Position numbers and translations under genes: made by a program
Assembly (NCBI GenBank): GCA_035550055.1
Contig: DASZRO010000106.1
Coordinates: 1-52,056, forward strand
Length of the DNA stretch: 52,056 nucleotides
Reading direction: 5' to 3'
Source of the DNA: Mycobacteriales bacterium
GTDB taxonomy: Bacteria > Actinomycetota > Actinomycetes > JAFAQI01
In this document: piece by piece, positions 4,261-28,549 of the stretch
Numbering within the stretch: position 1 is the first letter of the stretch
Layout: each line of letters begins with the position of its first letter
The notes under the pieces: model-generated
What the model was told of the DNA's origin: nothing
What the model saw: only the letters and a program-made list of their open reading frames with translations
Database searches by the model: none

Positions 4261-5829
4261 TCAGTCGATCGGGTGCAGGCCGCCGAAGTACTTCATGCAC
4301 GTGCACGAGGAGTCGAAGCGAAAGTCACGGACCTCGCCGGGCAGCCCATGGTTGCTAGCCGACAGCTCGGAGCTGTACGTCGAGGCCGGGGCAAAGCGCG
4401 CCCCGACCTTCGCCATCCCGGCGGCGAGATCCGCGGCAGTGAAGCCGCCGCCCGCCTGCGCTGCCGCGACGAACAGCCGGATCGCGTCGCACACGCCGCG
4501 GAAGTTCTCGACCTGAAGCCCAGTGGTGTCGCGAATCCCCGCGGCCTTGGCATAGGCGTCACACTGCCGAGCCTGCGCACTGGGCGCCGGGACAGGTGAG
4601 GCGTCGGTCGGGGTCCAGCTGATCCCGACCTCGCCGACAAGTTCCTTGTGGGGCAGGTCGGCCACCTGTTGGTTAGGCAGCGAGAACGACGTGACTCCCG
4701 ACCGCGGGAAGTAGTGCTGCTGACTTGCCGCGTCGTAGAAGAACAGCTCCTCGAGGGCGATCGGCGGGATGTTGAGCACGTGCGTCACGCCGGCCGCCGC
4801 GAACTGGAGCACCGCCGAGCCCATCTCGGTGGTGTAACCGTCGAGTGAATCCTTGTAGGAGAAGGCCTTCGCGACGTCGTACCCGGCGCTTCGGACATCG
4901 CTGGCGAGGCGTTCCGCCAGCTCGGAGCCGGCCGGCGTGTCGGGCTCGAGGATCCCGACCTTCACCGTCGTGCCGCCCGACGTCGATCCGGTGTGCGCGT
5001 TCCACTTGTCGAAGAAGCCGTCGGCCGACAGTCGCTGCACCATCGTGTGGGCGATCACGTCGACGTTCGGCTCGGCCAACGTGTAGAGATACGGGCCCCA
5101 CTGCTGATACTCCGCGGCCCCGATCAGCGGGGAACCGGCCTCGATGTCGGGGATGCCGGTCGGCTTCAGACACACCGGCAACGGGACGGCTGGCAAGAAG
5201 TTGATCGCCTCGCTCACCCGATGGTCCTGGCTGAAGTACTCACAGTCGCTCTGCGCGGCCGAGGTCGCGTTGGCTTCGATGGACAGAGTGGACGTGTTGT
5301 GAAAGACCGCGACGATCTTGCGGCCGAGGACCCCGCCCGCCTTGTTGAACGCCGCGAGCAGGGCCGCAACGTCGTCGTTGAGGTTGCCCGGGCTGAAGTC
5401 GATGCCGACGCCGGGCAGCGTCCCGGGTGCGTCGTTCTCGGTCGGGATGCCGAGGTACACGTCATCCTTGTCCCAGCCCGGCCCGGTCGCCGGGATCGCC
5501 GCGGGGTCGGACGGCGGGCGGCCGGCGTCCCGGGGAGGGCCAGCGCTCGCGCCGGCGGCAGTGCTCGCGGTCGCGGTCGGTGGGACGCGACGTCCGGTGT
5601 TTCCGGCCGGCGCACCGCCCGACGTCGGGCGCAGCGGCCTCGCGGCCGGGCCGGTCGGGTCCGAGGGCGCCGTCACCGCGGGTCCCGAGCCGGGCGCCGA
5701 CAGCTGCCCGGCTTCGGACGTGGCGGCCGGCCGATCGCCGACCTGCAGCGTCGTTCCGCAGGCACCAAGGACACAGACGAGCACTGCCCCGACCGCCGGC
5801 ATGCCGCCACGACGAACCGTCCTGTACAT
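4261..5829 (-). CDS. SBP1: lipoprotein substrate-binding protein of LIV-type ABC transporter
   Basis: 522 residues. A lipoprotein signal peptide ends in VLGAC (lipidated Cys about residue 24), followed by CGTTL and a Pro/Ala/Gly/Thr-rich linker of about 90 residues. The rest is a type-1 periplasmic-binding fold of the Leu/Ile/Val class (GVGIDFSPGNLNDDVAALLAAFNKAGGVLGRKI, then a SQDHRV segment). It ends SSCTCMKYFGG, a CxC motif shared by all four SBPs here. It should bind a small amino-acid-like or amide ligand at the outer membrane face. The ATG at 5829 is preferred over TTG at 5832 because GAGGAGG then sits six bases upstream. The ATG overlaps the TetR stop by one base (TGATG), so the two are translationally coupled. 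Confidence 0.85.
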   Translation of the reverse strand: MYRTVRRGGMPAVGAVLVCVLGACGTTLQVGDRPAATSEAGQLSAPGSGPAVTAPSDPTGPAARPLRPTSGGAPAGNTGRRVPPTATASTAAGASAGPPRDAGRPPSDPAAIPATGPGWDKDDVYLGIPTENDAPGTLPGVGIDFSPGNLNDDVAALLAAFNKAGGVLGRKIVAVFHNTSTLSIEANATSAAQSDCEYFSQDHRVSEAINFLPAVPLPVCLKPTGIPDIEAGSPLIGAAEYQQWGPYLYTLAEPNVDVIAHTMVQRLSADGFFDKWNAHTGSTSGGTTVKVGILEPDTPAGSELAERLASDVRSAGYDVAKAFSYKDSLDGYTTEMGSAVLQFAAAGVTHVLNIPPIALEELFFYDAASQQHYFPRSGVTSFSLPNQQVADLPHKELVGEVGISWTPTDASPVPAPSAQARQCDAYAKAAGIRDTTGLQVENFRGVCDAIRLFVAAAQAGGGFTAADLAAGMAKVGARFAPASTYSSELSASNHGLPGEVRDFRFDSSCTCMKYFGGLHPID

Positions 5830-6512
5830 CAACGCCTCCTCGGGTTCGACGCTGACGGGTGAGCGGCTCGCCCGAGCACGTTCCTGATCGCTCGCTCGAA
5901 CTGCGGCAGGGTCGCGGCCGCCTGATCGTGCGGTGGCGCGCCGCTGAGCTCAGCGAGCACCGCGTTGGCGCGCGCCGTCGCCGGGAACTTCGCCGCGTCG
6001 GGCAGCCGGGCGTCCGCCTGCGCGTGCTTGATGGCGGTCGAGGCGCCGGCAAAGATGGCGCCGAAGAGCACGATGACGAACTCGTACGCCGCCTGCACCG
6101 CGGCGACCGGATCGACGGCCATCGACTCGAAACAGGTCAGCACCGCCTCCATCACCGCGGCCAGTGGGTCGCTGCCCTCGGCGAACAGCAGCGGCGTGGC
6201 GCGAGGATGCCTGAGCCACCCGGCGCGGATCCGAAGCGCGAAGTCGAGCAGGCTCGCTTCGGGCGCAAGGTCGGGCGACGGCGTACCTCCGGCCTCGTCG
6301 ATGATCCGGACGGCGACCAGCCCGAGGAGCTCGTCGAGATGGGTGAAGCGGCGGTAGAGGTTCGCCGGATAGCTGTCGAGCGCCACCGCCAAGCGACGCA
6401 TCGACAGGCCTTCGAAACCGTGGTCGTCGATGATCGCGAGCGCCACGGTCACGATGCGGTCGAGCGATGGGGTCGCCGCGCCGTAGACCCGCGCCGCCGG
6501 CCGCGCGCTCAT
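5829..6512 (-). CDS. TetR-family repressor coupled to SBP1
   Basis: 227 residues. The N-terminal helix-turn-helix is clear: VALAIIDDHGFEGLSMRRLAVALDS then YPANLYRRFTHLDEL, where TetR proteins usually have a Tyr-x-His/Arg-Phe turn. The C-terminal half is the variable ligand-binding domain. It lies directly upstream of SBP1 and overlaps it by one base, so it most likely controls its own operon in answer to the SBP1 ligand or a breakdown product. A perfect palindrome ends 12 bases before its start codon (6524-6544). The start at 6512 is supported by GAGAG five bases upstream. Confidence 0.88.
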   Translation of the reverse strand: MSARPAARVYGAATPSLDRIVTVALAIIDDHGFEGLSMRRLAVALDSYPANLYRRFTHLDELLGLVAVRIIDEAGGTPSPDLAPEASLLDFALRIRAGWLRHPRATPLLFAEGSDPLAAVMEAVLTCFESMAVDPVAAVQAAYEFVIVLFGAIFAGASTAIKHAQADARLPDAAKFPATARANAVLAELSGAPPHDQAAATLPQFERAIRNVLGRAAHPSASNPRRR

Positions 6513-6523
6513 CGGAGCTCTCG

Positions 6524-6544
6524 AATGCTCACAGTGTGAGCATT
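6524..6544. promoter_or_regulatory. perfect 21-bp palindromic operator of the TetR-SBP1 operon, with -10 box
   Basis: Arms AATGCTCACA and TGTGAGCATT flank a single central G. TetR-family dimers commonly bind such perfect palindromes of this size, often with GCTCAC/GTGAGC halves. On the minus strand a -10 hexamer CATAAT (6547-6542) overlaps its right end, so a bound repressor would cover the promoter and the transcription start (about 6535). A -35 box is weak (TTGGAG, 19-base spacer). No plus-strand gene starts here, so autoregulation of TetR-SBP1 is the simplest reading. Confidence 0.8.
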
Positions 6545-6559
6545 ATGACGCCTGACCGG

Positions 6560-7981
6560 CTATGCGCTCCAAACCTCGGGGTGGCGATCGGCCCAACCGA
6601 TTGCCTGCTCGAGCTGCGCGGCCAATGAGATCAGCCGCTCGTCCGCGGCGGCGGGACCGGACAGCTGCACGCCGATGGGCAGGCCGGTCGAGGTCGCGTG
6701 CACCGGCAGGCTCACCGCCGGCGTCCCAGAGATGTTGGCCATCGGAGTGAAAGCACTCCACCGGCCCATCGCCTGGAAGGACTCCTCGCCGTCGTCGAGG
6801 CGCAGTTCCGACGTCGGCTGCGGCGGCGCGGTCGTCGTCGGGGAGAGCACGACGTCGTAGTCCGCGAGCAGGCTGCGATAGCGCACCGCTGCGTTGTAGA
6901 GCGTGGTCTGGGCCTGCGAGAGGTCGACCGCGGAGTACGGGCCGAGCTGGGCGAGCCACCGGGTGTACGGCATCAGCTTGTCGTGCAGCTCGGCCGGGAT
7001 GACCGTGGCGAGCAGGACCGCCATGCTGGTCGCGAGGATCACCTTCGCCGCCGGGCGCACCTCGTCGGCAGCCGGTAGTGCCGCGAGATCCAAGGGCACG
7101 AGCTGATGTCCGAGATTCTCGAGCACCCCTGCGGTACGCCGCACCGCGTCGAGGCAGTCCGGCGCGACCTCGATGTCAGCGCTGGGCGCTTCCAGCACAC
7201 CGATGCGAAGCGCGCCCGGCTCCCGCCCGACCGCTCGACGGAACCCGTCCGACGTCGCGGCGGCGTGCCACAGGTCGACGCCGACCGCCGGACCGACGGC
7301 GTCGAGGAACAGGGCGGTGTCGGCGACGGTCCTGGTCAACGCCCCCTCGGTGGCGAGCGCGAGCCAGCCGATGCCGGAGCCTGCGCTGCGCCCGCGCGTC
7401 ACCTTGAACCCGACCAGCCCGCAGTTCGCCGCGGGCGTCCGCAGCGACCCGAGCCCGTCACTGCCGTGGCCTACCCCGACGAGACCGGCCGCGACGGCTG
7501 CTGCCGCTCCGCCGCTCGAGCCGCTCGCCGACAACCCTTCGCCGTACGGCGTCTCGGTGTCACCGATGAGTGCCGTGTCGGTGTAGCAGACCGGGCCGAA
7601 CTCCGGTGTGTTCGTCTTGCCGACGAACACCGGGCCGGCCGCACGCAACGCCGCGACCACCGGGCCGTCCGCGGGTGTCACCAGGTCGGCGAGTGCCGCG
7701 CTGCCGAACGTCGTACGCATGTCCGCCGCCGGATAAAGGTCCTTCAGCGCCACCGGGACGCCGTGCAGCAGGCCGGCTGCAGCCCCAGCCGCCCGCTCCT
7801 TGTCACGAGCTCGGGCGGCCTCCAGCGCCTCGTCGGCCACGACCGTGATGAAGCAGCGCAGCCGGCCGTCGAGCCGATCGATGCGATCGAGATAGTGCGA
7901 GGTGAGCTCGAATGACGAGGTCTCGCCTGAGGCCAGCGCCGCGACCTGCTCGGTGATCGTCAGGTCGTGCAGCTCGCTCAC
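6560..7981 (-). CDS. amidase-signature-family amidase
   Basis: 473 residues. The Ser-cisSer-Lys triad of the amidase signature family is complete: Lys80 in VALKDLY, the cis-serine in SGSSGGAAAA (residues 153-162), and the nucleophile Ser179 in GSDGLGSLRTPAANCGLVGFK. It hydrolyses a carboxamide to acid and ammonia in the cytoplasm; GatA is unlikely because no GatB or GatC is nearby. The GTG at 7981 overlaps the upstream hydrolase stop by four bases (GTGA); the open frame further upstream is out-of-frame hydrolase sequence. Last gene of a TetR-hydrolase-amidase operon divergent from SBP2, which suggests an imported amide as substrate (inference). Confidence 0.9.
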   Translation of the reverse strand: MSELHDLTITEQVAALASGETSSFELTSHYLDRIDRLDGRLRCFITVVADEALEAARARDKERAAGAAAGLLHGVPVALKDLYPAADMRTTFGSAALADLVTPADGPVVAALRAAGPVFVGKTNTPEFGPVCYTDTALIGDTETPYGEGLSASGSSGGAAAAVAAGLVGVGHGSDGLGSLRTPAANCGLVGFKVTRGRSAGSGIGWLALATEGALTRTVADTALFLDAVGPAVGVDLWHAAATSDGFRRAVGREPGALRIGVLEAPSADIEVAPDCLDAVRRTAGVLENLGHQLVPLDLAALPAADEVRPAAKVILATSMAVLLATVIPAELHDKLMPYTRWLAQLGPYSAVDLSQAQTTLYNAAVRYRSLLADYDVVLSPTTTAPPQPTSELRLDDGEESFQAMGRWSAFTPMANISGTPAVSLPVHATSTGLPIGVQLSGPAAADERLISLAAQLEQAIGWADRHPEVWSA

Positions 7982-8988
7982 GATGCCGTGACCTCGACAC
8001 CCCACGCGCCGGACGTCGCTGCCACGGCGGTCTGGCGCACGACCGCGGCGACCAGCTCCGGCTGATCCAGTGGCACGAGGTGCCCGCTGCGCGTCGCCAA
8101 CACCTGGCGGCCGAGCGGGACCGCCGCCGCCTGCTGCGCGTGCAGCTTGCCGATGGTGTCGCGCGCCTTCTCCTCCGCCGCGGTCCGCGCCGGCGCGGCG
8201 GCAGTGATCACGGTGAGCGGGACCGGCGGCAGCGGATGTTGCGCGGTGGTCGCCGCGACCTCCGCGAGCGCGGCCGGCAAGCCGACGAGCTCTGCCGCCA
8301 CCGCTCGCAAGCCGTGCACGGTGCACAGCGTAAGCCGGGTCGAGGTGGCCAGCAGAGTCCCGTCCGCGATCGGCTGACGAGCTTGCGCGGCGACGACCTT
8401 CGCGTACGCCCGTCCGACCACCCGCGCGGTGCCGAACCGCGCTGTCGCGACCACCGCACGGACCGCACGTGCGAACCGGTCGGAGGACCTGCGGGCCGCG
8501 TCGTCGTCGAGCATCGCCTCGTGGGAGGGGTCCACCAGCACCAGGCCGGCGACGTGATCAGGGAACAGCGAAGCGACCAGCCGGACGGTGAGGCCGCCCA
8601 TCGAGTGACCGACGAGGATCCAGGGTGCGGGTACGTCGAGCTCGGTGAGCAGCCGCTCGATGCGGTTCGCGGCCGCGACCGGGGTGTGGCGACCACCCGG
8701 CGGCGACCAGGCGAAGCCCGGCCGGTCGTAACGGACGACGGTGAAGTCAGCGGCGAGGTCGGCGGACACCGCGGCCCACTCGATGCTCGAGCCGCCCAGC
8801 CCGGAGTCGATCAGCACGGTGGGACCGCTGCCCTCGACCACGACGTGGACGAGCTCGTCGCCGACCTGGACCAGCCGGCCGGGTGGCGCGAAACGGCGCC
8901 GGTCTCGCGCTTCGAGCCACCGCTGTAACAGCGCCGCGCCGACCAAGCAGACCGCGACCGCCGCCACGACGGTGAGGGCGATCGTCAC
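7978..8988 (-). CDS. membrane-anchored alpha/beta hydrolase
   Basis: 336 residues. An N-terminal hydrophobic segment (MTIALTVVAAVAVCLVGAALL) looks like a signal anchor. The hydrolase core follows: SGLGGSSIEW as oxyanion region, YDRPGFAWS, the nucleophile elbow GHSMGG, VDPSHEAML, and a late TRSGHLVPLDQP supplying the histidine. The GTG at 8988 is chosen because GTGA overlaps the TetR stop at 8985 by four bases; earlier in-frame residues look non-coding. It is the middle gene of the TetR-hydrolase-amidase operon. Substrate unknown; ester or lactone cleavage is possible. Confidence 0.85.
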   Translation of the reverse strand: MTIALTVVAAVAVCLVGAALLQRWLEARDRRRFAPPGRLVQVGDELVHVVVEGSGPTVLIDSGLGGSSIEWAAVSADLAADFTVVRYDRPGFAWSPPGGRHTPVAAANRIERLLTELDVPAPWILVGHSMGGLTVRLVASLFPDHVAGLVLVDPSHEAMLDDDAARRSSDRFARAVRAVVATARFGTARVVGRAYAKVVAAQARQPIADGTLLATSTRLTLCTVHGLRAVAAELVGLPAALAEVAATTAQHPLPPVPLTVITAAAPARTAAEEKARDTIGKLHAQQAAAVPLGRQVLATRSGHLVPLDQPELVAAVVRQTAVAATSGAWGVEVTAS

Positions 8989-9605
8989 GCCATGCCGCCC
9001 AGCACGCACTGGTCGAGCGCGGCGAGGACGAGCCGCTCGGTGATCACCTCTGGACCGAGCATGGCGCGCGTGCACAGCATCGACCAGCACAGGTCCGTGA
9101 TCACCTCGACAAGGTCGATCGCGGGGAGCGGGAGCACCTCGCCCGAGCGCGCGGCGATCGCCTCCAACACCTTCGCCTGCTCCCGGTGCTCGCGCTGGCG
9201 CTGAGGCAGCCGGCGTTGCCGCGTCTCCGGGTCGCGGATCGCGGCGAGCACGAACTCCAGCGACAGCACGGTCAGTTCCGGCTGGGTGTCAGACTGCTCG
9301 ACGATGCGACGGCCGAGATCGGCGACGCATTCCCGCACCGTCGGCGCGTCCGGGTCGAAGACGGTCCCCTCGCTGCCCGTGTCCTCGAGAAGGGTCACCA
9401 TCAACTCGGCCTTGCTGGCGAAGTTGGAGTAAATGGCCCCCACGGTCACTCCGGCGGCACTCGCGATCTCGGCGTGCGTGGCGCCCAGGATCCCTCGCTC
9501 CGCCACCACTTTGCGGGCAGCGTCGAGCAGGGCACGCCTGGTCTGCTGCTGACGCTCCTTGCGGGTCGGCGGGCGCGCGATCGCCTCGTCATCCCCGGTT
9601 GACAT
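8985..9605 (-). CDS. TetR-family repressor divergent from SBP2
   Basis: 206 residues. Helix-turn-helix is textbook: LLDAARKVVAERGILGATHAEIASAAGVTVGAIYSNFASKAEL. The ATG at 9605 (MSTGDDEA) lies inside a 42-base pseudo-palindrome shared with the divergent SBP2 promoter; its -10 hexamer GATACT (9618-9613) is only seven bases before the ATG, so the mRNA is probably leaderless. It heads an operon with a hydrolase and an amidase and likely represses both this operon and SBP2 by binding the shared site (inference). Confidence 0.9.
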   Translation of the reverse strand: MSTGDDEAIARPPTRKERQQQTRRALLDAARKVVAERGILGATHAEIASAAGVTVGAIYSNFASKAELMVTLLEDTGSEGTVFDPDAPTVRECVADLGRRIVEQSDTQPELTVLSLEFVLAAIRDPETRQRRLPQRQREHREQAKVLEAIAARSGEVLPLPAIDLVEVITDLCWSMLCTRAMLGPEVITERLVLAALDQCVLGGMA

Positions 9606-9640
9606 ACTCGCCAGTATCTGGATACTGCCCGATATGTCAA
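9599..9640. promoter_or_regulatory. symmetrical divergent leaderless promoter pair and TetR operator
   Basis: A 20-2-20 base inverted repeat with 16 of 20 matching pairs. On the plus strand TTGACA (9599-9604), 16-base spacer, GATACT (9621-9626), seven bases, ATG of SBP2 at 9634. On the minus strand TTGACA (9640-9635), 16-base spacer, GATACT (9618-9613), seven bases, ATG of TetR at 9605. Each start codon context ATGTCAA is the reverse complement of the other promoter's -35 region TTGACAT. The core CAGTATC-TG-GATACTG is a perfect 7-2-7 palindrome and the likely TetR operator. No Shine-Dalgarno sequence is evident for SBP2. Confidence 0.8.
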
Positions 9641-11172
9641 TGGTCCCGCGGATGGGCCGCGGCCACGTCCGTGCGGTGTGCGCCGCAACCGTGGTCGGGA
9701 TGGTCGCGATCGCGGGCTGTGGCACCACGATCCCCTCCCGGGAGTGGCCCGGCGCGCTCGCCCAGACCCAGAGCTCGGACCCCGACCTCGGATTGACCGT
9801 GCCGACACTGCCTGCGGGCGGTTCATCCAATGCCGGGGCCACGGCACCGCCCGGCACACCGCAGCCGAACGACACGGCGCCCGCCACCGCCGGCGCGCCG
9901 TCCGGCACTGGGCCGCGCCCAAGCAACCCCGCGGGCTCGCCGAGCGTTGCGCCCGGCACCCCGCGCGGCACCCGCTCCCACGCGCCGATCGAGGTCGGCA
10001 CGTACTCACTCGACGGCGGCAACGGCGCGCTGTCCAGCCTGGGACTCAGTGGCCTGGTGATCCCCGACAACCGGCCGGTGTTCGACGCGTTCGTCCGCTA
10101 CACCAACGCTCATGGCGGCCTGGGCGGCCGCAAGATCGTGCCGGTGTACTTCACCTATCACGAAGGCGCGAACCCGCAGACCCAGGACGCGGCAGCATGC
10201 TCGGCGTTCACCCAGGACCACCATGTCGCCTTCGTCATCGGCGGGGAGAATGCGGGCGCCGGCGAGCTGTTGCCGTGTCTGGCCAGCCACGGCGTGCCGC
10301 TGATCGGATCCGGTGGTGGCGGGGACGCCAGCTACTTCGCGCGCTATCGCAACTACGACTACGAGCCCGACCAGATGAACTTCACCACCGGTCTGGAAGC
10401 GCTGGTCGCGAACCTGAAGTCCCGTGGCTACCTCAACGGCGTCAAGAAGGTCGGCGTCATCCAGTACCCGGGCCAGGTCTACACGAACGCCGTCGACAAC
10501 GGCCTTGCACCGGCGCTGAAGTCCGTCGGCCTGGAGATCAACGCCCGCTACACGACCGGCTCGACGACCGACGACAGTGCGATTGCGAGCTCTGCGTCCA
10601 GTGCGGAGCTGCGGTTCGCCGCCGAGGGCATCAACCTGGTGCTGTTCATGACACCCGGCGGCGCGGCGGAGCTGTTCTTCATGACGACCGCGAACATCCA
10701 GCACTACGACCCGAAGTACGGCATCTGGAGCGCGGACTCGCCGTACGTGCTCGAGAAGGTCGCGCCGAAGAGCGAGCTGGCCAACACGATCGGCATCGGC
10801 TACGAGCCGGGCCTCGACGTCGCCTCGGCCCAGGACCCGACGGCGCAGACCGCCGCCGGGAAGTCCTGCCTCGCGTTCGGCCGCAAGCTCGGGCTCAACG
10901 AGTCCGGGCTCGCCAACGCATTGGTGCGAGCCGCCTGCGACGACTGGTTCCCGCTGATCCGGCTGGCCAAGCGGGACCCGCAGACGCTGGACTCGGCAAC
11001 CGCTCTCGCCAAGGGCTTCGACAGCCTCGGCTCCTCCTACCAGTCCGCCAGCACGTTTGCGATGCGCTTCACCGCGGACCGCCACGATGAAGCACACGGC
11101 TATCGCGACCTGGCCTACGACCACGGCTGCTCGTGCTTCGACTACGTCGGTGCGACCCACCTGACCGACTGA
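9634..11172 (+). CDS. SBP2: lipoprotein substrate-binding protein of LIV-type ABC transporter
   Basis: 512 residues. Signal peptide with lipobox AIAGC (Cys about residue 29), then CGTTI and a long low-complexity Pro/Ala/Gly/Thr linker. The Leu/Ile/Val-type binding fold follows, with the segments NAHGGLGGRKIVPVYF, FTQDHHVAFVIGGEN and AELRFAAEGINLVLFM. It ends HGCSCFDYVG, the CxC motif of the local SBP family. The start at 9634 is chosen because it fits a leaderless transcript from the promoter at 9599-9626; ATGs at 9640 and 9652 are alternatives. It overlaps the next gene by one base (TGATG). First gene of an operon that runs to PucR at 15233. Confidence 0.85.
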   Translation: MSMVPRMGRGHVRAVCAATVVGMVAIAGCGTTIPSREWPGALAQTQSSDPDLGLTVPTLPAGGSSNAGATAPPGTPQPNDTAPATAGAPSGTGPRPSNPAGSPSVAPGTPRGTRSHAPIEVGTYSLDGGNGALSSLGLSGLVIPDNRPVFDAFVRYTNAHGGLGGRKIVPVYFTYHEGANPQTQDAAACSAFTQDHHVAFVIGGENAGAGELLPCLASHGVPLIGSGGGGDASYFARYRNYDYEPDQMNFTTGLEALVANLKSRGYLNGVKKVGVIQYPGQVYTNAVDNGLAPALKSVGLEINARYTTGSTTDDSAIASSASSAELRFAAEGINLVLFMTPGGAAELFFMTTANIQHYDPKYGIWSADSPYVLEKVAPKSELANTIGIGYEPGLDVASAQDPTAQTAAGKSCLAFGRKLGLNESGLANALVRAACDDWFPLIRLAKRDPQTLDSATALAKGFDSLGSSYQSASTFAMRFTADRHDEAHGYRDLAYDHGCSCFDYVGATHLTD

Positions 11173-12113
11173 TGGCCCGCGGATCCGACGGGGCGCTCGC
11201 CGCGCTCGCAGCGATCGGCAACACTCCCCTGCTGCCCATCCCGCTGCCTGCGGGCATCCCCGGCAGGTTGCTGGCCAAGGCGGAGTACCTGCAACCCGGC
11301 GGCAGCATCAAGGACCGCGCCGCGCTCGGCTGCGTCGAGCACGGGCTGGCTTCGGGTGAGCTGTCCGCCGGTCAAGCCGTCGTCGAGATGACGAGCGGCA
11401 ACATGGGCGCCGGGTTGGCGGTCGTGTGCGGCGTGCTCGGTCATCCGTTCACGGCCTACGTGTCGGCAGGGAACTCTCCGCAGCGCGCCGTGATGATGCG
11501 CGCACTCGGTGCGAGCGTCGTCCTCGTCGACCAGGTCGACGGCCGGCCCGGCCAGGTGACCGGGCCCGACATCGAAGCGGCCGCGGCACAGGCCCGTCAC
11601 GACGCCGCCGCAACAGGCGCGTGGTATGTCGACCAGTTCCACAACTCGGGCTCGGTGCACGCCCATGAGCGCACGGGCGAGGAGATCTGGCAGCAGACCG
11701 ACGGCGCCATCGACGCCTTCGTGGCATGTGTCGGTTCCGCCGGCTCGTTGATGGGCTGTGCTCACGCGTTGAAGGCACATCGGGCGCAAATCGCGATCCT
11801 CGCCGTCGAGCCGGCGACCTCCCGGCCGCTCGCCGGCCGACCGATCTCGGACCCACGACATGCGCTGCAGGGCAGCGGCTACGGCATCGTGCCTGCGCAC
11901 TTCGACCCGTCGCTCGTCGACGGCTACCTGGCCGTGACGGACGAGAGCGCAACGGCGACGCGGCGGTGGCTCGGCGAACGCTGCGGCCTGCACGTCGGCT
12001 ACACCGCCGCGGCCAACGTCGCCGCGGCAACCGACTGGCTGGCCGCACAAGAGCACGACCTCACTGTCGTGACAGTGTTGTGCGACACCGGCCTCAAATA
12101 CCTGTCCGAGTGA
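11172..12113 (+). CDS. PLP-dependent cysteine-synthase-family enzyme
   Basis: 313 residues, fold-type II PLP enzyme. The Schiff-base lysine is in GGSIKDRAA (Lys47), and the substrate-binding loop is TSGNMGAG. The phosphate-binding loop reads VGSAGS rather than the usual GTGGT, and the substrate loop has Met in place of Thr, so a strict O-acetylserine sulfhydrylase role is doubtful; a beta-elimination/replacement or dehydratase activity on another amino acid is possible. The start overlaps the SBP2 stop by one base, implying coupled expression with that binding protein, and hints that the SBP2 ligand may be an amino acid or derivative. Confidence 0.8.
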   Translation: MARGSDGALAALAAIGNTPLLPIPLPAGIPGRLLAKAEYLQPGGSIKDRAALGCVEHGLASGELSAGQAVVEMTSGNMGAGLAVVCGVLGHPFTAYVSAGNSPQRAVMMRALGASVVLVDQVDGRPGQVTGPDIEAAAAQARHDAAATGAWYVDQFHNSGSVHAHERTGEEIWQQTDGAIDAFVACVGSAGSLMGCAHALKAHRAQIAILAVEPATSRPLAGRPISDPRHALQGSGYGIVPAHFDPSLVDGYLAVTDESATATRRWLGERCGLHVGYTAAANVAAATDWLAAQEHDLTVVTVLCDTGLKYLSE

Positions 12114-23352: not shown

Positions 23353-26312
23353 CGGGCCGCCCGGTTGTCACTTGCCGCGGTGCCGCCGGATCGCTCGATC
23401 GCCGTGACGCTGCCACCGAGGTAGGCGTCGACGACGGCAGGCTCGTTACGAACCTGTTCGGGCGGCCCGTCGGCGATGACGACGCCGTCGGCCATCGCGA
23501 CGATGCGGTCCGAGATCCCCATGATGAGCGGGATGTCGTGCTCGATCACGACCAGCGTCAGGTCGAGCTGGCGTTTCAGATCCACCAGCAGCGCGCCCAG
23601 TGCCTCGGTTTCGCGCTGCGCGATCCCGGAGGACGGCTCGTCGAGGAGCAGGCAGACCGGCTCGAGCGCGACCAGGCAGGCGATCTCGGTGATTCGCCGG
23701 GTCCCGGTCGAGAGCTCCTGGATCTGCTTGTCCCGGTAACGCTCCAGCCCCATGGCCGCGACCAGTGCACGGGCGCGGCGTTCCTTGCTCCGCTCGCCCA
23801 GGGCGACGCCTGCCGTCGAGGTCAGGAACCGCGTCGGCTGGACCCGCTCGAAGGCCAGCATGACGGTCTCCTTGACCGTCATCGTCGGGAACAGCGCAGC
23901 GTCCTGGAACGACCGGATCAGGCCCAGCTTCGCCCGCTCCTCCGGGCCCAGATGGGAGACGTCACGACGGTCGAACCGCACCTGGCCGGCGTCAGGTCGG
24001 GTGAAGCCGCCGAGCAGCTCGAACGTCGTGGTCTTGCCCGCACCGTTGGGCCCGATCAGCCCGACCGTCTCACCGGCGCGCACGACGATCGAGACGTCGC
24101 GGACCGCGTGCACCCCGCCGAAGCTCTTGCGGAGGTGACGCGCTTCCAGCAGCGTCGTCCCGCTCGTCGGGCGGCGCTGCACCGGAACCGCGGCTCGGTC
24201 GCGGGCACGCAGCTGCGAGATCGTGGACGCGGTGGGACCCGCCGTCGTGTCCTCACCGGCGTACAGCGGCTCCGGGTCGATGCCGTGCCAACGCGCGATC
24301 ATCTTCACGATCCGGTCTCGTAGCGGCTCGACCAGCTGAATGAGCCCACCCGGCTTCCACAGGATCACGCCGAGGACGCCGAGGTTCGTCGCGGCCAGCG
24401 CGATGTTGCCGATGTTCAGCAAGGGCAGGCCGATGATCCACAGCGCGCCGAGCAAGGGGCCGGACAGGGTGAACACCCCGCCGAGGACGGTCATGACGAC
24501 GACGTTGACGCTGGCGTCGGTCGGGAAGGTCGTGGCACCGATCGAGGACAACGAATGACCGTACGCCGCGCCCCCGATGCCCGCGATGAAGCCTGCGATC
24601 AAATAGCCCTGCATCTTGACCGCACTCGCCTTGATCGTGAACGCGCGGGCGTTGTCCTCGTTGTCTCGGATCGCGACGAGCAACCGCCCGAACCCGCTAC
24701 GGCGGATGTTGCGCACCACCACGATCGAGAGCACGAACAGCGTCAACGCGAAGTAGTAGTAGGAGTGACCGGTGTCCAGGGCGTGGCCGAAGACGACCGG
24801 AGCACCGGGATCCCGGCCGTCACCGAGCATCCACGACTGCGGAAGCAGCCAGGCCGGCGTGGCGAGGGCGAAACCGAGGGTGGTCAGGGTCAGCATCAGC
24901 CCGCGGATCCGAAGCGACGGCAGGCCGATGATCACCGAGACCAAGCCCGCCGCCAGCCCGGCGTAGAGCAACGCGAGCGGGAAGTCCCCGATCCGGCCCG
25001 ACACCTTGTACGACACGACGGCGCCGATGGCCGCCACTGCGAACTGCCCGAGCGTCAGCTGCCCCGCCAAGCCGGTGAGCACGCAGATCGACAGGCCGAC
25101 GATCGCGAAACAGAGGATCTGGGTGAAGTCGACCGAGACGCTGTTGTCGACCATCAGCGGCAGCAACGCCAGCACCGCGACCACCACCACCGCGACGGTC
25201 GGCGCGAGCGCGCGAACCATCGGCAGCTGCTGCAGCCGATGCGGGATCGGGCGCAGCCCCTGGACCGCCGCCCAGCTGCCCTTCTCCTCGTCGCGGCCGC
25301 CCCGCTGCCGCTGGAAGAGCAGCGCGAGCAGGATGATCACGAACAGGGTGATCTCGACCAGGCCTGACTGCGGGTAGTTCCACAGCAGGATCTGCTCGAG
25401 GATGCCGAGCCCGACCCCGCCGGCGAGCGCCATCGGCAGGTTCTGCATCCGGCCGACGACCGCCGCCGTCATCGCCCGCAGCAGCAGCTCCGGCCCGAAG
25501 CTGTCCCCGCTGGTGAAGCCTTGGGTTGGCGCGGTGAGGATCGCGGTCAGCGCGCTCAGCGCGCCGGCGATCGCCCAAGCGAGCGTCGACATCCGCGCGG
25601 CGAAGACACCCGACATTCGGGCCGCTTCCGGGTTCGCCGCGGCCGCCCGCAGCGCCAGGCCGAAACGGCTGCGCTTGAGGAACACCGCAAGCGCCAGCAC
25701 CACGACCGGGCAGATGATCAACATGCCCGAATACGCCTGCGTGACGCGCAACGCGCCGATGTTGAACGCCGGCAGGAACGACGGCTGCGGATACAGCGAA
25801 CCGGCCGACGCCGTCGAGTTGATGACCAGCGCGAAGACGACGAGGAACTGCCCGACGCCGAGCGTCGCGACGACGCTCATCAGCCGCGGCGCGTCACGAA
25901 GCCGGCGCACGACCCCGGTCTCGGCTGTGGCGCCGGTGAGCGCCGCGACGATCAAGGCCATGGGGAAGGCCACCCAGTACGGGATGTGCCACTTGACCGC
26001 TGCGACGCCGAAGAAGGCGGACCCGAAAGCGCCGACCTGACCGTGAGCGAAGTTGATGATCCGGTTCGTCCGGTAGATCAGGACCAGGCCCACGCCCAGC
26101 AAGCCGTAGGTGAGGCCCGTGATGGTCCCGAGCACGATCACCGGGAACGGCGTCGACGCGTGAATCACACCGTGGCGGGCGAGCAACGCGCTGCCCACCT
26201 TCGCCACGACGACGGCGAGGACGAAGGCCGCGAAGGCGAGCGATCCCCTGCGCGTCGGCATCGGGATGCGCCGGCCGGGAGCGCCGTCGAAGGCGGGGAC
26301 GCTCGCGCTCAC
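23349..26312 (-). CDS. LivH-LivM-LivG fusion: LIV-type ABC permease/permease/ATPase
   Basis: 987 residues holding three subunits of a branched-chain-amino-acid-type transporter in one chain. LivH permease, about residues 55-335 (YRTNRIINFAHGQVG is the LivH hallmark); LivM permease, about 365-665 (GLAGQLTLGQFAVAAIGA, RDNEDNARA, IAGFIAGIGGAAYG); linker about 670-720; LivG ATPase 720-970 with Walker A GPNGAGKT (754-761), signature LSTGT (867-871), Walker B CLLLDEP (887-893) and His925. The signature departs from the LivG norm LSYGQ. It overlaps MFS-LivF and the surface protein gene by four bases each. It should form the membrane pore that imports ligands from the SBPs. Confidence 0.92.
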   Translation of the reverse strand: MSASVPAFDGAPGRRIPMPTRRGSLAFAAFVLAVVVAKVGSALLARHGVIHASTPFPVIVLGTITGLTYGLLGVGLVLIYRTNRIINFAHGQVGAFGSAFFGVAAVKWHIPYWVAFPMALIVAALTGATAETGVVRRLRDAPRLMSVVATLGVGQFLVVFALVINSTASAGSLYPQPSFLPAFNIGALRVTQAYSGMLIICPVVVLALAVFLKRSRFGLALRAAAANPEAARMSGVFAARMSTLAWAIAGALSALTAILTAPTQGFTSGDSFGPELLLRAMTAAVVGRMQNLPMALAGGVGLGILEQILLWNYPQSGLVEITLFVIILLALLFQRQRGGRDEEKGSWAAVQGLRPIPHRLQQLPMVRALAPTVAVVVVAVLALLPLMVDNSVSVDFTQILCFAIVGLSICVLTGLAGQLTLGQFAVAAIGAVVSYKVSGRIGDFPLALLYAGLAAGLVSVIIGLPSLRIRGLMLTLTTLGFALATPAWLLPQSWMLGDGRDPGAPVVFGHALDTGHSYYYFALTLFVLSIVVVRNIRRSGFGRLLVAIRDNEDNARAFTIKASAVKMQGYLIAGFIAGIGGAAYGHSLSSIGATTFPTDASVNVVVMTVLGGVFTLSGPLLGALWIIGLPLLNIGNIALAATNLGVLGVILWKPGGLIQLVEPLRDRIVKMIARWHGIDPEPLYAGEDTTAGPTASTISQLRARDRAAVPVQRRPTSGTTLLEARHLRKSFGGVHAVRDVSIVVRAGETVGLIGPNGAGKTTTFELLGGFTRPDAGQVRFDRRDVSHLGPEERAKLGLIRSFQDAALFPTMTVKETVMLAFERVQPTRFLTSTAGVALGERSKERRARALVAAMGLERYRDKQIQELSTGTRRITEIACLVALEPVCLLLDEPSSGIAQRETEALGALLVDLKRQLDLTLVVIEHDIPLIMGISDRIVAMADGVVIADGPPEQVRNEPAVVDAYLGGSVTAIERSGGTAASDNRAAR

Positions 26313-28549
26313 GATGCCGCTCCGGCGCCCTGCAGGAAGACCGCACGCAACAGGTCGTCCCTGGCCAGCAGATCCTCGGCGCGCCCGTCGAAGCGCATCT
26401 CGCCCTTCTCCATGAAATAGGCGTGCTCGACGAGGTTGAGCGCGATGTTGACCGACTGCTCGACCAGGACGACCGCGGTGCCGTCGTCGTTGATCCGCCG
26501 CACCATGTCAAGCAGCTGCCCCACGATGACCGGCGCCAGCCCGAGCGACAACTCGTCGATCAGCAACAACCGCGGACGGATCATCAGGGCTTTCGACAGT
26601 CCGAGCATCTGCTGCTCACCACCCGAAAGGGTGGCGGCCAGCGAGTTACGGCGTTCGTACAGCCGAGGGAACGCCTCGAACGACGCCTCGATCGCGCGGT
26701 CCACGGCAGCCCGGTCGCGACCCAACGTGAACCCGTACGTGCGCAGGTTCTCCACGATCGTCATCGGTCCGAACACCGCGCGGCCACCGGGGATCTGCGT
26801 GATGCCCAGCCGGAGCCGTCGCTCGGCGTCGAGGTAGGTGATCTCCTGCCCGCGGTAGCGCACACTGCCGCGACTGGGCAGACCGATCCCGGAGATCACC
26901 TTCAGCAGAGTCGACTTGCCTGCGCCGTTCACTCCGAGCAACGCGACCATCTCGCCGTCATCGACGGTGAAGTCGACATCGAAGAGCACCTGGAGCTGAC
27001 GGTAGGCGAAGTCGACTCCGCGCACCGACAGCATCGGCAGGTGGGCGCCGCTGGCCTTGAGCCGGCGGATCTCCTCGTCTTCGAGGACCGCGTCGATCAT
27101 CTGGTCCATGTCGGTCTGGATCAGCGATCCGGCGGTCCCGATGACATAAGCGGCGAGCACACCGGGAATCGCGATCGACACCATCGTTCCGGCGACGCCG
27201 TACTGGGTCTGGATGCCCGACAGCAGGAGCGCGCCGACCGTGCCGCCGATGGCGGCGAAGATGCTGGCCAGGGACTGCGCGTGCGCTCGCATGTTGGCGG
27301 GGACGATCGACAGCAGCGACACCCCGAGCGCAGGGGTCAGTACGGCGATGCAGCCGCCGGAGATGCCGAAGCACACGACCATCGGCCAGAACCACGGCAT
27401 CACGCCGCCGAGCGCGATGAAGATCACGCCCAGGCCGAGCAGGTAACCGCCGACCCGCAGCAACCGCGGCGGGTCGGCCCGGAACTGCTTCTCCCCCAAC
27501 CTGCCGTAGGCCAGCAGCGCCACCACGCCGGCGGCGGCGTAATACGCGAAGAACAGTCCGCGCTTTCCGGGACCGAGGTTCCACTTCTGGTCGAGGAAGA
27601 AGGAGATGAACGTCAGCAACGGCACGATGAGGATGCCGAGTACGGCGAAGCCGGCGCAGATGCGCCGGTTCGTGGGCACCAGCAGCACTCGCCGGCAGAT
27701 CTCCCAGAATCCGAGCGCGACATCGGACTCCTCCAGCTCGGCAATCGGACGGGTCGCACCGTGCGCCTCCCGCACGCGCGCCCGCAGCTGCTCGGTGTCC
27801 CACTTGCCGAACCCGGGGTCACGCAGCCCGAGGGACACCAGCGTCATCGCGATCGAGGTCACGCCGAGCAGCAGGAAGACCCCCCGCCAGGTGAACCCGG
27901 CGATGCCTGCGAGCAGGCCCACGAGCGCCGGGGCGAGGACGTTGCCGAAGGTGCCGAAGGCCTGGTAGGTCGACACCGCCCGCACCCGCGCAGCCGGCGG
28001 GTAGCTGTCGACGACGAGCGGATAGTGCAGCGACTGCGCGCTGCCGGTGCTCAGTCCGTCGCACACCAGGATGCCGATCAGGCCTAGCAGCGACGTCACG
28101 AAGCCGGTGAACAGGGTCAGGACGCTCCACAGGAACCCCGTCACGATGCAGAGCAGCGCTCGGCGAGCCCGGCCTTGGGTGAGCGCGGCGATCGGCAGCG
28201 GGGCGACAGCGACCGCGAGCGCACGCAGCCCGATCGCCGCGCCGATGGCACCGATCGAGATGCCGAGGGTGCGGCTGATCTCAGGCGTGAGGACGGTGAA
28301 GGCGAACGCCTGGAAGTTGTCCGAGATGTAGAGCAGGCCGAGCGCGATGACCGGGTAGTACGACAGCCCGTGGGTCCGCAGGATCCGGCGGAAGGACTCG
28401 GTGTTCGCGTCGCCGATGACGCCGAGCTGGCTGCGGGCGACGTCGTGCAGCGACGCCCGGGTCTGCTCGATGTCCGACAGCGCCTCTGCCGGCGCCGGCG
28501 CCGCCGCCTCGAGCGAGGGGGCGCTCACTGGGCTGCTGCGGCGAGCCAT
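26309..28549 (-). CDS. MFS transporter domain fused to LivF-type ABC ATPase
   Basis: 746 residues. Residues about 65-475 are a complete-looking major facilitator domain with many hydrophobic helices (TFGNVLAPALVGLLAGIAGFTWRGVFLLLGV; SLASIFAAIGGTVGALLLSG). Residues 505-740 are an ABC ATPase of LivF type: Walker A GVNGAGKST (539-547), signature LSGGEQQ (641-647), Walker B LLLIDE (661-666), and the VEQ switch normal for LivF. As LivG is on the neighbouring gene and no free LivF exists in the window, this ATPase is the natural partner, which would bring an MFS domain into an ABC complex. The ATG at 28549 overlaps the lipoprotein stop by one base (TGATG). Confidence 0.9.
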   Translation of the reverse strand: MARRSSPVSAPSLEAAAPAPAEALSDIEQTRASLHDVARSQLGVIGDANTESFRRILRTHGLSYYPVIALGLLYISDNFQAFAFTVLTPEISRTLGISIGAIGAAIGLRALAVAVAPLPIAALTQGRARRALLCIVTGFLWSVLTLFTGFVTSLLGLIGILVCDGLSTGSAQSLHYPLVVDSYPPAARVRAVSTYQAFGTFGNVLAPALVGLLAGIAGFTWRGVFLLLGVTSIAMTLVSLGLRDPGFGKWDTEQLRARVREAHGATRPIAELEESDVALGFWEICRRVLLVPTNRRICAGFAVLGILIVPLLTFISFFLDQKWNLGPGKRGLFFAYYAAAGVVALLAYGRLGEKQFRADPPRLLRVGGYLLGLGVIFIALGGVMPWFWPMVVCFGISGGCIAVLTPALGVSLLSIVPANMRAHAQSLASIFAAIGGTVGALLLSGIQTQYGVAGTMVSIAIPGVLAAYVIGTAGSLIQTDMDQMIDAVLEDEEIRRLKASGAHLPMLSVRGVDFAYRQLQVLFDVDFTVDDGEMVALLGVNGAGKSTLLKVISGIGLPSRGSVRYRGQEITYLDAERRLRLGITQIPGGRAVFGPMTIVENLRTYGFTLGRDRAAVDRAIEASFEAFPRLYERRNSLAATLSGGEQQMLGLSKALMIRPRLLLIDELSLGLAPVIVGQLLDMVRRINDDGTAVVLVEQSVNIALNLVEHAYFMEKGEMRFDGRAEDLLARDDLLRAVFLQGAGAAS

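Follow-up and report, generated by a model that had tools for sequence, protein, structure and literature searches.

The 42-bp element at positions 9599-9640 (TTGACATACTCGCCAGTATCTGGATACTGCCCGATATGTCAA) is a near-palindrome between two divergent genes, and it is likely to be a compact, self-regulated divergent control region, in which two leaderless sigma-70-type promoters and a TetR regulator acting on two ATAC-N6-GTAT sites would keep both operons co-repressed. All claims made here are based on sequence comparison, for which we have used the motifs and their geometry, leaderless usage in the genome, the spacing of operators among relatives, a match to the tetR half of the element in a related genome, and a parallel case in another genus. 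The source genome is a 3.54-Mb, 122-contig assembly, and the window refers to the whole stretch of 52,056 nucleotides that was analysed.

Genes and layout of the proposed control region

On both strands the element reads TTGACA, 16 nucleotides, GATACT, seven nucleotides and ATG, exact to the base as described in the original prediction, and the perfect 7-2-7 palindrome that had been claimed for its exact centre is present. The features are as follows (SBP, substrate-binding lipoprotein).

7978-8988, minus strand: alpha/beta hydrolase gene; GTG start overlaps the tetR stop (GTGA)
8985-9605, minus strand: tetR, 206 aa, TetR_N helix-turn-helix domain (PF00440; Pfam 5.2e-13)
9599-9604, plus strand: -35 box TTGACA of the SBP promoter; overlaps codons 1-3 of tetR on the opposite strand
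9603-9605 (reads 9605-9603), minus strand: ATG start of tetR and predicted leaderless transcription start (9605, plus or minus 1)
9604-9617: predicted operator O1, ATACTCGCCAGTAT (exact ATAC-N6-GTAT); overlaps the tetR -10 box, +1 and start codon
9612-9627: central 7-2-7 palindrome CAGTATC-TG-GATACTG; probable junction of the inner half-sites of O1 and O2
9613-9618 (reads 9618-9613), minus strand: -10 box GATACT of the tetR promoter; 16-nt spacer, 7 nt to ATG; same GATACT-N7-ATG in locus L039
9621-9626, plus strand: -10 box GATACT of the SBP promoter; 16-nt spacer, 7 nt to ATG
9622-9635: predicted operator O2, ATACTGCCCGATAT (one mismatch, weaker); overlaps the SBP -10 box, +1 and start codon
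9634-9636, plus strand: ATG start of SBP and predicted leaderless transcription start (9634, plus or minus 1), from the geometry and the genome-wide -10/start peak at 6-8 nt
9634-11172, plus strand: SBP gene, 512 aa, Peripla_BP_6 (Pfam 1.9e-13), lipobox ..VAIAGC in the translation
9635-9640 (reads 9640-9635), minus strand: -35 box TTGACA of the tetR promoter; overlaps codons 1-3 of SBP
11172-12113, plus strand: PLP-dependent, cysteine-synthase-like gene; ATG overlaps the SBP stop

Because of these overlaps of start and stop codons, the hydrolase gene is assigned to the tetR operon and the PLP gene to the SBP operon. Each -35 hexamer consists of the TG of the opposing ATG and the next four bases, the two -10 boxes are 2 bp apart, and the predicted starts of tetR and SBP are 29 bp apart. 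The core elements interleave in the manner of overlapping divergent promoters, and since each -10 box sits within the spacer of the opposing promoter, two polymerases are predicted to be unable to sit there together.

Elsewhere in the window, a second TetR-like gene (5829-6512, minus strand) precedes another Peripla_BP_6 lipoprotein gene (4261-5832). Just upstream of this TetR-like gene there is a perfect 19-bp palindrome, ATGCTCACA-G-TGTGAGCAT (6525-6543), which is likely its operator. Across two long minus-strand reading frames, positions 24001-28000 show a strong skew of A over T (about 0.2).

Leaderless starts

Leaderless starts are common in this genome. In 452 kb of it, where 341 genes were roughly called by a simple codon-composition filter, TANNNT was found 35 times at 6 nt, 20 times at 7 nt and 7 times at 8 nt upstream of candidate starts, versus about 1.7 times per position elsewhere (62 in total versus about 5 expected). 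The tetR and SBP genes both have GATACT-N7-ATG with no Shine-Dalgarno sequence, and the distance fits the genome peak. The first T of TANNNT is missing from GATACT, and GANNNT is only weakly enriched at 7 nt, which counts against the proposed reading; the perfect -35 box may compensate for the off-consensus first base. A candidate divergent leaderless pair with mirrored starts CCTTCAC...GTGAAGG, 31 bp apart, is found in the same genome (L114, G000:C5 near 84922), and its gene starts are uncertain. In Mycobacterium tuberculosis, leaderless genes make up a quarter of the genes (PMC3898074).

In a genome of the same family (G009), a related TetR and SBP are encoded head to tail and co-directionally (L039). 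The tetR start in L039 reads TTGACG-N17-GATACT-GCACGGT-ATG, where ATACTGCACGGTAT runs into the ATG and the predicted operator extends from the -10 box into the start codon. Judged from these motifs, L039 reproduces the tetR half of the element and supports the -10 box, the -35 box, the start codon and their overlap with the operator. Between the lipoprotein half and the tetR half, 16 of 20 positions agree, from GATACT through ATGTCAA, and the lipoprotein half may be an inverted copy or a product of convergence.

The match of L039 to the tetR half alone is in favour of an unlikely alternative, namely that only the tetR promoter is real. In that case the likeness on the SBP side would follow from operator symmetry, and SBP would use a translation start at 9640 or 9652 or be driven by a promoter elsewhere. 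Further in-frame ATGs of SBP stand at these two positions, the SBP in L039 has a shorter N-terminus, and O2 is the weaker operator site. However, the perfect TTGACA at 9599 extends beyond the ATAC-N6-GTAT sites and is thus not explained by operator symmetry, no nearby alternative promoter-like site for SBP was found in a scan of 9000-10200, and a Shine-Dalgarno sequence is absent before all three SBP ATGs (9634, 9640 and 9652). We prefer the reading with two promoters; the proposal of leaderless, fully overlapping divergent promoters, each start codon lying in the opposing -35 box, gains support from the genome-wide -10/start peak, the tetR layout in G009 and the parallel in another genus.

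Probable operator sites and proposed co-repression

Among the regions upstream of 17 TetR relatives (E < 1e-9), 13 ATAC-N6-GTAT sites were found in 10, with none at the other spacings of 0-12 and 0.016 in shuffles; the pattern was not found at 21 more distant TetR loci. In the present element, a palindrome of this shared pattern overlaps the regulator's own promoter, and the protein has the helix-turn-helix domain of TetR-family autoregulators. Two exact copies 17 bp apart were found in L032, L033 and L041, and one exact and one near copy with the same spacing in L043. The centres of O1 and O2 are 18 bp apart, each 9 bp from the central palindrome, and both this spacing (18 versus 17 bp) and the mismatch in O2 count against the assignment. 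The combined operator pattern occurs once in the whole genome, here, so the regulator is probably local. On this comparison, the TetR sites are probably 9604-9617 and the weaker 9622-9635, with the central 7-2-7 palindrome mainly their junction, and the likely operator unit of this TetR group is revised to ATAC-N6-GTAT.

In the proposed mechanism, a single 42-bp stretch would hold two divergent leaderless sigma-70-type promoters, and the TetR encoded on the left-hand side would bind at the adjacent O1 (good) and O2, probably as two dimers. Each site would cover the -10 box, +1 and start codon of one gene and the spacer of the opposing promoter. Core elements of both promoters would be covered by TetR bound at O1 or at O2, so that the tetR-hydrolase operon, which encodes it, and the SBP-PLP enzyme operon would be repressed jointly; a putative ligand would relieve the repression of both. 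On DNA free of TetR, RNA polymerase would be placed in only one orientation at once.

It had originally been suggested that one TetR dimer shuts both genes and that polymerase exclusion could make a switch. Co-repression of both genes is retained, judged from the operator position, and the single central dimer is not, because ATAC-N6-GTAT occurs in 10 of the 17 relatives, as compared with GTAT-N4-ATAC in one and GTAT-N3-ATAC in three. The central palindrome would be the appearance of two adjacent inner half-sites, so that a pair of neighbouring dimers is more likely than a single one on the centre. A single dimer on the central palindrome, combined with polymerase exclusion as a switch between the two genes, would agree with the perfection and exact central position of this palindrome, and overlapping promoters do exclude two polymerases (PMC12825309). 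Nevertheless, basal activity of the E. coli bidirectional promoters tested was too low for polymerase competition, which was found only after activation (PMC12825309), and the weight of exclusion here depends on promoter strength. Moreover, one repressor acting on both genes from the same DNA is expected to give co-repression and induction, and a bistable switch is unsupported; a lone co-repressor provides no second stable state, and nothing in the sequence sets up two alternative states. A toggle would need an additional component. A second repressor would be one example and an antisense overlap, as proposed for scbR/scbA (PMC7384680), another; neither is seen here. We therefore regard the single-dimer switch as very unlikely and retain co-repression from two adjacent sites.

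Symmetry of the element and possible constraint on coding sequence

Sigma-70-like matches in 9000-10200 are only these two promoter sites, and they are also the only genome-wide matches to TTGAC-N17..19-ATANT-N6..8-ATG (reversed control, 0). A search for TTGACAT-N28-ATGTCAA gave a single match in the window (0 of 100 shuffles) and no second one in the 3.54-Mb genome. With 16 of 21 complementary pairs, 9599-9640 is the top-scoring centre of all 42-mers in the window. Near-equal palindromes are not rare, the window having 7 centres with at least 15 pairs, but chance symmetry around a short intergenic gap is highly improbable, as the best centre of all coincides with the midpoint between two start codons, each with a consensus promoter (P = 6.5e-5 for self-complementarity with the start codons held fixed; promoter matches in shuffles, mean 0.0).

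The second codon is TCA in both tetR and SBP, and TCA accounts for 4.6% of Ser codons here. This is expected if promoter DNA constrains coding sequence, and the coding sequence of both genes looks constrained by the promoters.

Related genomes and a parallel case

One other genome of the genus and 12 others of the order were compared, and SBP relatives were sought within the order. No close relative of the TetR was found in the genus, family, class or GTDB contig collection, the best match having about 40% identity over most of the protein. When related genomes were checked for conservation of the symmetry, neither these TetR matches, none of them close, nor a class-wide pattern search gave another genome with the divergent TetR-SBP mirror. 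In another genome of the family, TTGACATCGAGAGTTCTCTGCTAGAGTATCTCGATGTCAA adjoins an inverted repeat TATCTC-N8-GAGATA (L054, G008:C308:3543-3582), and this is not clearly a mirrored start pair. TetR-like regulators adjoin Peripla_BP_6 lipoprotein genes repeatedly (L039, L018 and window positions 4261-6512; head to tail in L039 and 4261-6512), which suggests a regulator/binding-protein cassette.

Mirrored arms of the form TTGACAT-N26..31-ATGTCAA were searched with a class-wide pattern search and a genus search. ORF checks indicated that most matches in other actinobacteria are not mirrored starts (4-residue ORFs, repeats and single-sided genes). A control pattern was rarer than the arms, and this excess was set aside as evidence for mirrored starts, since it reflects operators in general.

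A true parallel was found in another actinobacterial genus (that of G199), where a MarR regulator and an FMN-reductase/GNAT protein are divergently encoded in 15 orthologous pairs with ATGs 29-31 bp apart. The MarR -10 box is TANNTT 6 nt before the ATG in all 15 pairs, and the reductase -10 box is TANNTT 7 nt before the ATG in 13, the box being shifted in the other two, which are both 31-bp cases. Within the MarR start ATGTCAA, the opposing -35 box is TTGACA in 15 of 15, and within the reductase start it is TTGACA, TTGTCA or TTTCCA; exact TTGACAT...ATGTCAA arms on both sides of the gap are found in 7 genomes. As in the present element, both genes are apparently leaderless, with such arms and with -10 boxes in both directions (TANNNT in the MarR pair). 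The pair differs in having a MarR in place of a TetR, an unrelated target, another operator and spacers of 17-20 (16 here), and it is conserved in 15 genomes. By this comparison, the mirror layout has an independent second occurrence beside an unrelated regulator, where it is maintained. In L098 and L095-L109, a palindrome, TTCGTTTCCATGGAAACGAA, is centred on the reductase start codon and is probably a MarR operator; in L098 it is perfect.

We tentatively raise a broader possibility, for which we see less than an even chance, that mirror leaderless promoter pairs have been selected and have evolved repeatedly as a minimal actinobacterial module. In such a module the same bases would serve as start codon, opposing -35 box and operator. 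This would lock the coding sequence to promoter strength and to repression of both genes, and polymerase exclusion would set their ratio. The conserved parallel makes two ideas testable, namely the competition of overlapping leaderless promoters and promoter selection dictating the first codons of proteins.

Comparison with known systems

Divergent pairs with overlapping promoters under TetR regulators include actII-ORF1/ORF2 and tcmR/tcmA. In our search of the literature, where subscription journals were sparsely covered, we found no description of start codons within each other's -35 boxes. Rv0078/Rv0077c of M. tuberculosis is likewise an actinobacterial TetR with a divergent gene; the starts are 61 bp apart, the transcription starts overlap, and the operator lies over both +1 sites and is bound by the repressor as two dimers (PMC6016246). 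However, that pair has 5' untranslated regions, start codons in opposing -35 boxes are not described there, and its dimers are staggered 7 bp on one 21-bp palindrome, versus two ATAC-N6-GTAT sites 18 bp apart here (PMC6016246). In dimer-of-dimers TetR operators (QacR, CprB and Rv0078), a single palindrome carries two dimers offset by a few bp.

The Rv1129c/prpD pair of M. tuberculosis resembles the present one as a divergent regulator/enzyme pair with both genes leaderless; in the accessible part of that report, closely juxtaposed divergent promoters are called common in this species, and mirroring on the same bases with start codons in opposing -35 boxes is not described (PMC3898074). The E. 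coli bidirectional promoters of Warman et al. also use pseudo-symmetric DNA on which opposing polymerases exclude each other, but they share one -10 box and have starts typically 18, 10 or 23 bp apart (PMC12825309), whereas the present element has two separate -10 boxes and more distant predicted starts. In scbR/scbA of Streptomyces coelicolor, a TetR repressor controls itself and a divergent gene from overlapping promoters, with convergent transcription across a 53-bp overlap and antisense RNA (PMC7384680). The predicted starts here point outward, and therefore no antisense overlap is expected.

Since leaderless mRNAs make such compact overlap possible, two divergent genes and a repressor site can share about 40 bp, with promoter elements inside codons 1-3. 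The element is a compact variant of the known overlapping divergent promoters under an autoregulated repressor, rather than a new kind of system.
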